From positions 105,611-169,610 of the forward strand of contig JAGAKS010000001.1 in assembly GCA_017625465.1 (NCBI GenBank): a stretch of DNA of 64,000 nucleotides, read 5' to 3'. This stretch comes from Clostridia bacterium (GTDB taxonomy: Bacteria > Bacillota > Clostridia > TANB77 > CAG-508). The position numbers were made by a program, and so were the translations under genes. This document shows positions 44,633-50,793 of this stretch, in pieces. Below the pieces are notes generated by a model. The model saw only the letters and a list, made by a program, of their open reading frames with translations, was not told the DNA's origin and did not search any database. Position 1 is the stretch's first letter, and each line of letters begins with the position of its first letter.

Positions 44633-44643
44633 AAAACACCTCC

Positions 44644-44776
44644 AAAAAAAAATTTGACTTATTTTAAAAAGTCAAATCCACATAAATATCTTATAAATAT
44701 TTGCATAAATAATGATATTTTCAACCTTATAATCTGCATGACATAAGGTGAGAAGTGGATACTTCTTCTTAAAACA
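44644..44776 (-). ncRNA. L20 leader (infC-rpmI-rplT attenuator)
   Basis: The minus-strand transcript carries AAGTATCCACTTCTCACCTTA and later GGTTG and GTGGATTTGAC, then a terminator stem AAATTTGACTT/AAGTCAAATTT followed by nine Ts and the infC GGAGG. The CCACTTCTCACCTTATG segment with its distal partner is characteristic of the L20 leader family, in which L20 binding promotes termination. A consensus promoter lies upstream. Confidence 0.85.
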
Positions 44777-44781
44777 TATAT

Positions 44782-44810
44782 ATTTTACTACGAAATTGCA
44801 GTGGTGTCAA
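44782..44810 (-). promoter_or_regulatory. Promoter of the infC operon
   Basis: TTGACA (44805-44810), 17 bases, TAAAAT (44782-44787). It places the transcription start at the beginning of the L20 leader. Confidence 0.85.
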
Positions 44811-44880: not shown

Positions 44881-45357
44881 TTATTTATTTTTATTAAGTA
44901 AAATATTTTTCATTTCTATAATATCATAAAAAGGTATACTTATTCCTTTTTGCGCTAGTTTTATAACAGTCATTGAAGTATTTATAATTTCATTCTTTAA
45001 ACTTTCTGTTATTTCAACATCTTGCTTTTTATTTTGATATTTACTTTCTATGTATTCTTCTGTGGTAGGAAATATATTTTGTATTAAAAATGTTTTTTCT
45101 TTTCCTAAAACTTTGCCAAAAACAAAATTATATACTCTCTTTTTTGATTTCTTTTTGTGTTCATATATAGTTTTGTATTTATCTGTTTTACTTGAAATTG
45201 GTACAAACCAAATTATTCTTTCATTATCTGGATCATTAAAACAAAAATAGCAAGGTCTTTTATTACCATTTTCCTTGTTTTCCATCAATTTATATCCTTT
45301 AAATAATTCAAAAAAATTATCTTTTATAAAATAAAACTTTCCATTTTCTACTCTCAT
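44881..45357 (-). CDS. Type III toxin (ToxN/CptN/TenpN-like endoribonuclease)
   Basis: A 158-residue protein, probably the endoribonuclease toxin of a type III toxin-antitoxin pair. It begins MRVENGKFYFIKDNFFELF. Near residue 50 it has IIWFVPISSK, then KYKTIYEHKKK and near residue 88 KVLGKEKTFLIQNIFPTTEEY; a helical end follows. The VPISSK stretch followed by basic residues resembles the PLTSPK-type active-site region of ToxN, and the FLIQN-FP segment fits what I remember of CptN relatives. The assignment rests mainly on context: the gene directly follows a tandem-repeat RNA gene and its terminator. GAGG lies before the ATG. It sits between coaX and the infC promoter with no other gene. Closest family (CptN versus ToxN) is uncertain. 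Confidence 0.78.
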   Translation of the reverse strand: MRVENGKFYFIKDNFFELFKGYKLMENKENGNKRPCYFCFNDPDNERIIWFVPISSKTDKYKTIYEHKKKSKKRVYNFVFGKVLGKEKTFLIQNIFPTTEEYIESKYQNKKQDVEITESLKNEIINTSMTVIKLAQKGISIPFYDIIEMKNILLNKNK

Positions 45358-45375
45358 TATTACCTCATTTCTAAC

Positions 45376-45407
45376 AAAAAATCTACCTTCGAAAAGGTAG
45401 ATTTTTT
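45376..45407 (-). terminator. Terminator between antitoxin RNA and toxin gene
   Basis: AAAAAATCTACCT/AGGTAGATTTTTT, a 13-bp stem with a six-base loop and a T-run at the end on the minus strand. In type III systems a terminator at this place sets the high ratio of RNA antitoxin to toxin message. Confidence 0.88.
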
Positions 45408-45552
45408 ATACATTTGTCCACCTACGCATTTATTTGTCGCAAGTAGGGTTGCGAGTAACATTTGCTCACCTATGCATTTATACCCCGCAAATAGGGTTGC
45501 GGCTAACATTTGATTTTGGACAAGATACTATTTATCAAGTATCTTTACTATT
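45376..45552 (-). ncRNA. Type III antitoxin RNA: two 48-nt pseudoknot repeats plus the start of a third
   Basis: Repeat units lie at 45465-45512 and 45417-45464, exactly 48 bases each, and a third copy begins at 45416 (CAAATGT). Each unit opens with CAAATGTTA and has a hairpin: CCGCAA-CCCTAT-TTGCGG in unit A (45485-45502) and TCGCAA-CCCTAC-TTGCGA in unit B (45437-45454). The loop then pairs with a downstream ATAGG (A) or GTAGG (B), giving an H-type pseudoknot. Both the stem end (C-G to U-A) and the loop pairing (U-A to C-G) change in a compensating way, so the structure is conserved. The promoter lies upstream and the terminator downstream. This fits a ToxI/CptI-like RNA that the toxin itself cuts into single units. 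Confidence 0.87.
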
Positions 45553-45558
45553 ATATTT

Positions 45559-45588
45559 ATTATAATATGTTTTTATGCATAAAGTCAA
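45559..45588 (-). promoter_or_regulatory. Promoter of the type III toxin-antitoxin locus
   Basis: TTGACT (45583-45588), 18 bases, TATAAT (45559-45564). Transcription would start near 45552, just before the first repeat. Confidence 0.82.
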
Positions 45589-50447: not shown

Positions 50448-50738
50448 TTACATTTTCATTTCATGTTTGTTACATTCTTCTTTTTCATGCTCTTTGATAT
50501 ATTTAAGTTTTGTTGCCTGACCTCCTCTAATATGCCTTTCTGCTTTATTCTCATCTAATACCTTTCTAACCTCCATTGCCAAATTATTATTTATATAAAG
50601 TAGTCTAAAAGCAATATCTTTATGTACAGTACTTTTGCTTATTCCAAATTTTTTAGCAGCTCCTCTTACTGTATCTTTTGTATCTATTATATATTCAGCA
50701 AGTTTTACTACTCTTTCTTCTATCGAAATTTCCTTCAT
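50448..50738 (-). CDS. spoIIID: Sporulation transcriptional regulator SpoIIID
   Basis: A 96-residue mother-cell transcription factor that adjusts the sigma-E regulon and switches on sigK. VVKLAEYIIDTKDTVRGAAKKFGISKSTVHKDI contains the helix-turn-helix, followed by RGGQATKLKYIKE and a basic end. The ATG at 50738 is used with GGGGG seven bases upstream; the longer reading from 50759 is rejected. The site lies in the 3' arm of a large hairpin (50745-50793) that is followed by seven Ts and then the ATG. A possible sigma-E -10 (AATACAAT) lies upstream, but I could not confirm a -35. Confidence 0.94.
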   Translation of the reverse strand: MKEISIEERVVKLAEYIIDTKDTVRGAAKKFGISKSTVHKDIAFRLLYINNNLAMEVRKVLDENKAERHIRGGQATKLKYIKEHEKEECNKHEMKM

Positions 50739-50744
50739 AAAAAA

Positions 50745-50793
50745 ACCCCCATACGTCAAATACTTTTGCTTAATTGTATTCGCGTATGTGGGT
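50745..50793 (-). promoter_or_regulatory. Hairpin with U-run directly in front of spoIIID, covering its ribosome-binding site
   Basis: In RNA order ACCCACATACG (50783-50793) pairs with CGTATGGGGGT (50745-50755; one G-U pair) around a 27-base loop. Seven Us and the start codon follow. It therefore looks like a terminator and a translation block at once. Confidence 0.55.

Follow-up and report, generated by a model that had tools for sequence, protein, structure and literature searches.

Organization of the locus

The window, i.e. the whole 64,000-nt stretch of contig JAGAKS010000001.1 that was analyzed, carries on its minus strand (45588-44881) a promoter, tandem repeats, a terminator and a toxin gene, arranged in this order (as judged at the sequence level and, for the terminator, by its fold) and located exactly where the original prediction had placed them. 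The promoter, TTGACT-18-TATAAT (45588-45559; TTGACT at 45588-45583, an 18-nt spacer and TATAAT at 45564-45559), matches the consensus at 11 of 12 positions and is the top scorer of 13 promoter-like matches in 0.9 kb (shuffled sequence averages 7.2). A similar promoter precedes the arrays of many relatives.

The predicted pair of 48-nt repeats with the beginning of a third was recovered by Tandem Repeats Finder (45410-45512, period 48, 2.1 copies, score 136). The two CptI units, defined by tandem repetition and covariation, are R1 (45512-45465) and R2 (45464-45417), and R2 is followed by CAAATGTA (45416-45409), the start of a third unit, which presumably serves as the 3′ processing junction of R2. 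The motif AATGT begins at the identical position in all 60 units of the 30-locus alignment described below.

Between antitoxin and toxin lies a terminator-like hairpin of 16 pairs (45409-45374; -16.9 kcal/mol, z -6.3), and none of 200 shuffled sequences folded equally well. The intrinsic terminator proposed for this position is therefore supported by folding, but a simple terminator scanner called none in the 0.9 kb, this hairpin included, perhaps because the T run belongs to the stem. The sequence GAGG (45366-45363), which resembles a ribosome-binding site, is followed by cptN (45357-44881), an open reading frame with an ATG start, identified also by family matches, which encodes the expected 158-residue protein with the VPISSK motif.

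The upstream flank is occupied by a type III pantothenate kinase gene (PF03309; 45615-46373) and the downstream flank by a gene that we take, from its sequence, to be infC, both in the same orientation as cptN. The kinase gene is present in the own genome and in none of 55 relatives searched, so the stretch that contains it looks recently acquired. Among 30 infC loci examined (one of which, L085, offers just 222 bases upstream), cptN precedes infC at the window locus only; the stretch upstream of infC varies, and a clean empty site for the module was not demonstrable. The leader before infC (44640-44800) contains AGTATCCACTTCTCACC, which resembles a leader motif of infC-rpmI-rplT operons, and Rfam at gathering score gave no match there.

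The toxin is a member of the CptN family

The 158-aa protein matched the NCBIfam CptIN equivalog model NF047359 with 163.7 bits (cut-off 90; E 2.5e-48), and up to E 10 no second family was found, the ToxIN and TenpIN models included. A phmmer search of PDB identified CptN of Eubacterium rectale (4RMO; E 7e-18), followed by MazF (0.059); with a profile of 30 aligned proteins, the values were E 1.7e-53 for 4RMO and 0.69 for MazF. The type III toxin-antitoxin assignment of the original prediction was thus right, and of the three toxin families that it named (ToxN, CptN and TenpN) only CptN was matched. Its suggestion that the protein might be too divergent for annotation by homology did not hold, in view of the NCBIfam match far over the cut-off. 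PADLOC gave no match for the toxin, its ToxIN and TenpIN toxin models included, and the sole Pfam match (CTD9; E 0.021) was under the cut-off and was rejected.

In the phmmer alignment (counted by hand), S55, S56, K57 and Y107 face Ser51, Ser52, Arg53 and Tyr104 of CptN_Er, for which the Ser-Ser-Arg triad and Tyr104 have been named (PMC4627078). The two proteins are therefore alike in a Ser-Ser-basic motif and in the tyrosine; in the triad of the window toxin, Ser55-Ser56-Lys57, the basic residue is kept and Arg is replaced by Lys. In the 30 aligned proteins, position 55 is invariably Ser, position 56 is Ser or Thr, position 57 is nearly always Lys (in a minority Arg or Gln), and almost all have the tyrosine at 107. 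Asp81 and Ser85, the adenine contacts of CptN_Er (PMC4627078), have no conserved counterparts in the window toxin or across this alignment. This, together with Lys in place of the triad Arg, means that neither catalysis nor the cut site is assured; since the two serines, a basic residue and the tyrosine are kept, RNase activity of the window CptN is likely, and its cut preference may differ.

Covariation supports a pseudoknot in the antitoxin units

Each unit can be folded into a stem S1 (R1, 45502-45497 with 45490-45485, six pairs; R2, 45454-45449 with 45442-45437) and a knot stem S2 formed by its loop (R1, 45495-45491 with 45473-45469, five pairs; R2, 45447-45443 with 45425-45421). In R1, L1 is the single base 45496 and L2 is A-rich, with UAUAAAUG in common with the published E. 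rectale repeat (as given in a primer).

For comparison, related loci were taken from the genome collection (39) and from 15 places in 12 of 56 genomes (the own genome included; some are fragments). Two units each were obtained from 38 loci. The final alignment of 30 loci contains that of the window; nine of the 38 were left out as near-duplicates or as being of another unit type (L004, L007, L021, L023, L024, L028, L029, L032 and L033). The covariation set comprised 44 distinct unit rows and 11 pairs (six of S1 and five of S2). Paired cells reached 98.3% (88.4% in shuffles), double-changed cells numbered 65 (23.5 in shuffles) and seven of the 11 pairs were changed on both sides; none of 500 shuffles was as high in any of these measures. 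Further pair types, one of five measures, were not above chance (8 vs 9.1 in shuffles). When the partner strand was slid by 1-3 columns, pairing fell to 27.5-50.1%. The clearest covariation was CGCAA..TTGCG versus CGGAG..CTCCG in S1 and U-A versus C-G in S2.

The covariation of both stems supports the six-pair hairpin and the five-base loop pairing, for which selection had been proposed from two compensating differences between R1 and R2; these differences are real (the first stem pair changes from C-G to U-A and the last loop pair from U-A to C-G). Knot-free folding did not return the proposed fold as the minimum for either unit (for R1, z 0.14 and a centroid with five S1 pairs; for R2, an alternative hairpin was preferred). 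Such folding cannot model pseudoknots, and it is the covariation that allows us to predict that the repeats form an H-type pseudoknot. No Rfam family matched the repeats at gathering score; nine weak matches in E-value mode, mainly on the hairpin, were read as chance.

The units resemble E. rectale CptI in the H-type pseudoknot, the one-base L1 and the A-rich L2 with UAUAAAUG (in R1), and differ from it in length (48 nt versus 45 nt) and otherwise in sequence (PMC4627078). In E. rectale CptI, the substitution A29U and the loss of U30 abolish antitoxicity (PMC4627078). At the position equivalent to A29, 28 of 30 R1 and all 30 R2 units have A; at that equivalent to U30, just 22 of 30 R1 units have U, versus 29 of 30 R2 units.

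A further contrast with E. rectale CptI is that R1 and R2 show constant differences from one another. The pair closing S2 is U-A in 30 of 30 R1 units and C-G in 30 of 30 R2 units. Across the 30 loci, R1 units share a mean identity of 0.83 and R2 units one of 0.89; the R1 and R2 of one locus average 0.74. In 27 of 30 loci R1 is nearer to the R1 found elsewhere than to the R2 beside it, and in 28 of 30 the R2 likewise resembles other R2 units more. Likeness between loci thus exceeds likeness within them, which argues that R1 and R2 are not homogenized.

Spread and decay of CptIN

At a threshold of E 0.001, and with the own genome counted, CptN was detected in 12 of 56 close relatives and in genome samples of the order (122 of 385) and of the class (15 of 391); of these, 9, 107 and 12, respectively, exceeded the cut-off. 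Relatives were found on 6 of 72,556 plasmids, each with <60% identity; GenBank phages contained none, and none was confirmed in the viral-contig scan. In six of the 38 two-unit loci (L007, L019, L036, L040, L044 and L049) the toxin frame is broken and the array still present, which suggests that the module decays often.

Interpretation of the window locus

We conclude with high confidence that the window carries a chromosomal CptIN type III toxin-antitoxin module, ordinary as to its kind, on the grounds of family membership, layout and the covariation of the pseudoknot. It resembles E. rectale CptIN in the protein family and in the succession of tandem units, terminator and toxin (4RMO; PMC4627078). 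From this organization we infer how the module would be transcribed and processed, and how it would act. The single promoter would drive an abundant short transcript that comprises two pseudoknot units and mostly ends at the hairpin, and partial read-through would supply the CptN endoribonuclease. CptN would cleave the precursor at CAAAUG junctions and be held by the released units, probably in a ring like that of E. rectale, with two proteins and two RNAs; two fixed, different units would suit such a ring. If the supply of RNA dropped, freed CptN would cut cellular RNA and growth would stop. The advantage is probably that the module, and with it neighbouring or co-resident DNA, is retained. 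A role in phage defence, raised in the original prediction, is so far unsupported for CptIN: the E. rectale system stabilized plasmids, and in E. coli it gave no protection against >200 coliphages (PMC4627078).

The general layout is shared with ToxIN and TenpIN, but membership in one of these families is scarcely credible, since among the NCBIfam models only that of CptIN was matched up to E 10, the only good match in PDB was CptN, with MazF next at 0.059 or 0.69, and the 48-nt units with a one-base L1 and a long A-rich L2 correspond to the description of CptI_Er (PMC4627078). A degenerate or silent module, a relic with a non-working toxin, is a more serious alternative, considering the Lys in place of the triad Arg, the broken toxin frames in 6 of 38 relatives and the common occurrence of arrays without a toxin (see below); we nevertheless regard it as unlikely, because the frame, promoter, units and hairpin of the window are all intact, and SSK is common to most aligned relatives with intact frames. 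It could also be supposed that the main function of the repeats is to decoy or regulate other CptN proteins, the linked toxin being secondary. Units of this type do occur without a toxin in many genomes and elements, but the toxin linked to the window array is intact and its subtype matches, which makes this explanation very improbable.

Arrays without a linked toxin

We surveyed the order with a covariance model of the window-type unit (S1 only; E 0.01). Array matches were present in 83 of 385 genomes, 20 of which had no CptN match according to two genome tables compared by hand (G020, G039, G045, G051, G447, G453, G494, G531, G540, G553, G591, G633, G645, G647, G662, G665, G666, G695, G761 and G762); in G453, G531 and G633 the arrays lie at contig ends, G662 and G761 have one weak match each, and the surveyed genomes are metagenome-assembled or draft, so that an absent toxin may be an assembly gap. 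Forty array regions were fetched, chosen because the toxin was not listed beside the array or as comparisons, i.e. not as a random sample: 32 lacked a CptN trace better than E 0.1, and eight had a full or partial trace (L190, L208, L210, L211, L212, L217, L218 and L219). No window-type units were found in viral contigs (four patterns) or in GenBank phages.

Two species of one genus have toxin-free arrays at the same place (L204:2097-2193 and L205:2119-2214), each with its promoter and hairpin, and the toxin has shrunk to a start codon and a few codons. The context of both is presumably a P-type ATPase gene, the array and rpmF.

Arrays in or near spoIIID

Thirty-six arrays from the 40 regions were tabulated. 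Thirteen of them, from 13 genomes of seven genera (L183, L185, L186, L187, L191, L192, L194, L195, L196, L213, L210, L211 and L212), consist of two units and start no more than 14 nt from the stop codon of a toxin-antitoxin-type gene. In ten of them the preceding genes encode a PIN-like protein together with a partner of about 66 aa (G645, G540, G447, G695, G591, G708, G553, G647, G535 and G604; in G553 only the end of the partner is on the contig, and in G708 and G647 the PIN-like gene is in two frames), and in three it is a CptN of a different type or subtype that precedes the array (G720, G609 and G768). In Pfam, PIN was over the cut-off in one of two copies scanned, and the partner had no family over the cut-off. 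Seven of the 13 genomes (G645, G540, G447, G695, G591, G553 and G647) have no CptN match anywhere.

In nine of the 13 cases a large serine recombinase gene, encoding resolvase and recombinase domains, begins 125-178 nt past the array (it is truncated by contig ends in G645, with 17 residues left, G535 and G540), and spoIIID sequence lies no more than 2.1 kb from the remaining four arrays. In the three elements visible from end to end (L223, L227 and L228), spoIIID is split at STVHKDV, with codons 1-45 at the left and codons 36 onwards where the recombinase gene ends. Both ends of these elements carry a similar 14-bp sequence, GTACAYAARGAYGT, with one or two differences between the ends, and their sizes are about 8.5, 5 and 8.5 kb, respectively. 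The spoIIID gene of the window itself (50448-50759) is intact. No relative of the recombinase was found in viral contigs.

The skin and gin elements likewise combine a serine recombinase, a split sporulation gene and short similar end sequences (Abe et al. 2017, PMC5595907); here the target is spoIIID, and the cargo of the elements, which measure about 5-8.5 kb, includes toxin-antitoxin genes and CptI arrays. In the literature searched, including passages of PMC5595907, we found no case of an intervening element that splits spoIIID. Judging from their sequences, these elements possibly represent a new class of sporulation-gene intervening elements.

The 26 units of the 13 arrays retain the fold, with 96.5% pairing and 38 double-changed cells. 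None of 500 shuffles was as high for pairing, double-changed cells or covariation; four were as high for the number of pairs with double changes, and 48 for further pair types. The first S2 pair is U-A in five of the 26 units (C-G in 43 and unpaired in one of the 44 cognate rows), and the pair closing S2 follows the rule for R1 (U-A in 13 of 13) and R2 (C-G in 12 of 13, one being U-G). In the second units of G591 and G708, S1 is broken, and some other units have one mismatch. Comparison of six elements (15 pairs) gave an identity of 0.87 for the array, 0.65 for the spacer behind it, 0.82 for the upstream gene pair and 0.89 for the start of the recombinase. For this group we reject the explanation of toxin-free arrays as mere remnants, because the array is conserved better than the spacer and covariation is kept; other toxin-free arrays, e.g. 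those of G035, G011 and G572 (contig 24), may be remnants.

Mixed arrays and units of the E. rectale type

Three of the 13 arrays (G708, G553 and G447; L192, L194 and L186) add a third unit, of the E. rectale type, after the two window-type units. In G708 and G553 its 34-nt core is identical to the published E. rectale repeat; in G447 there are two changes from this core and one S1 pair is lost. An E. rectale-type unit with an identical core also lies about 3.4 kb from the array of G647 (L231, minus strand, 11223 of the reverse complement).

Toxins linked to window-type and to E. rectale-type arrays, with types set by simple motifs that 33 of 94 toxin loci do not fit, are 31-46% identical to each other. 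This is close to the 35-44% at which the three CptIN systems of Rao et al. (2015) gave no cross-rescue (PMC4627078).

In the class, the E. rectale-type pattern (at most one mismatch) occurred in 4 of 391 genomes. Such units lie upstream of the genome's own CptN in G130 and G345 (two units each) and in G323 (one unit). A second unit of G323, on another contig (L249:1501-1526; one mismatch), is placed beside phage HNH and terminase genes with no CptN adjoining, and the single unit of G334 (L244:1501-1526) lies about 45 nt behind a RelB/ParE operon, in a genome with no CptN match.

The viral-contig scans revealed E. rectale-type units in two records, neither of which contains a CptN match up to E 1. 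The first, G773 (IMGVR_UViG_2910649936_000002; 150,785 bases), encodes a portal protein (E 2e-43), terminase, primase, DnaB, integrase and anti-repressor. Its single unit, with the published E. rectale core (L240:2262-2304; pattern at 94265-94296 of the record), lies within a tRNA cluster, directly against the 3′ end of tRNA-Asn and ahead of a tRNA-Met-like sequence, which was called by neither ARAGORN nor Rfam. The second, G774 (IMGVR_UViG_3300035520_001099; 5,347 bases), has a single unit with one S2 mismatch (L242:4786-4811), located right after a promoter-like TTGACT-17-TATGAT and ahead of two large serine recombinase genes. Blastn of the E. rectale unit against plasmids returned nothing, and the seven 25-nt matches obtained against GenBank phages (E 0.2) were taken as chance.

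Possible role of the toxin-free units

Toxin-free CptI arrays related to the window locus are real as sequence. That such units serve as decoy antitoxins, a natural RNA anti-toxin device of Clostridia mobile elements and phages, is a proposal to which we would give an even chance on the strength of the sequences. They would neutralize a foreign CptN, whether of an integrated rival, of a lost plasmid or element, or, in the case of a newcomer, of the host's CptIN. This is the simplest account, because the units keep the fold and the junction motif, combine types, and lie behind other toxin-antitoxin genes or among phage genes. The spoIIID elements would keep a window-type two-unit array behind their own toxin-antitoxin gene, in its 3′ untranslated region, the third unit, where present, would act against a second CptN type, and the element or its host would survive the loss of, or attack by, a rival's CptIN.

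An anti-addiction function, discussed for chromosomal toxin-antitoxin loci in PMC12548467, is favoured over anti-defence, since CptIN so far shows plasmid stabilization and not phage abortion. The nearest precedent for phage-borne, toxin-free antitoxin units is the pseudo-ToxI of phage phiTE, in which antitoxin-like repeats can come to neutralize the ToxIN of the Pectobacterium host; the wild-type phage has 1.5 repeats and no full unit, and escapes only after expansion or recombination (Blower et al. 2012, PMC3475682). The toxin-free units described here are of CptI, not ToxI, and differ from pseudo-ToxI in being whole, covarying, stable, present in many species and in some cases mixed. In the literature searched for orphan or decoy type III antitoxins, in which subscription papers lay mostly outside the scope, we found no report of toxin-free CptI units.

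The window locus adds a clean member to CptIN and, with its relatives, provides a covariation-supported RNA model that has no Rfam counterpart; it was this model that uncovered toxin-free units on integrative elements and phages. RNA decoys acting against CRISPR offer a comparison for such units. If toxin-free units do neutralize CptN, type III antitoxins would be weapons in their own right in the conflicts of mobile elements, and mixed arrays would cover several toxins. In the G773 phage, the unit placed between tRNA genes could be freed by tRNA processing.
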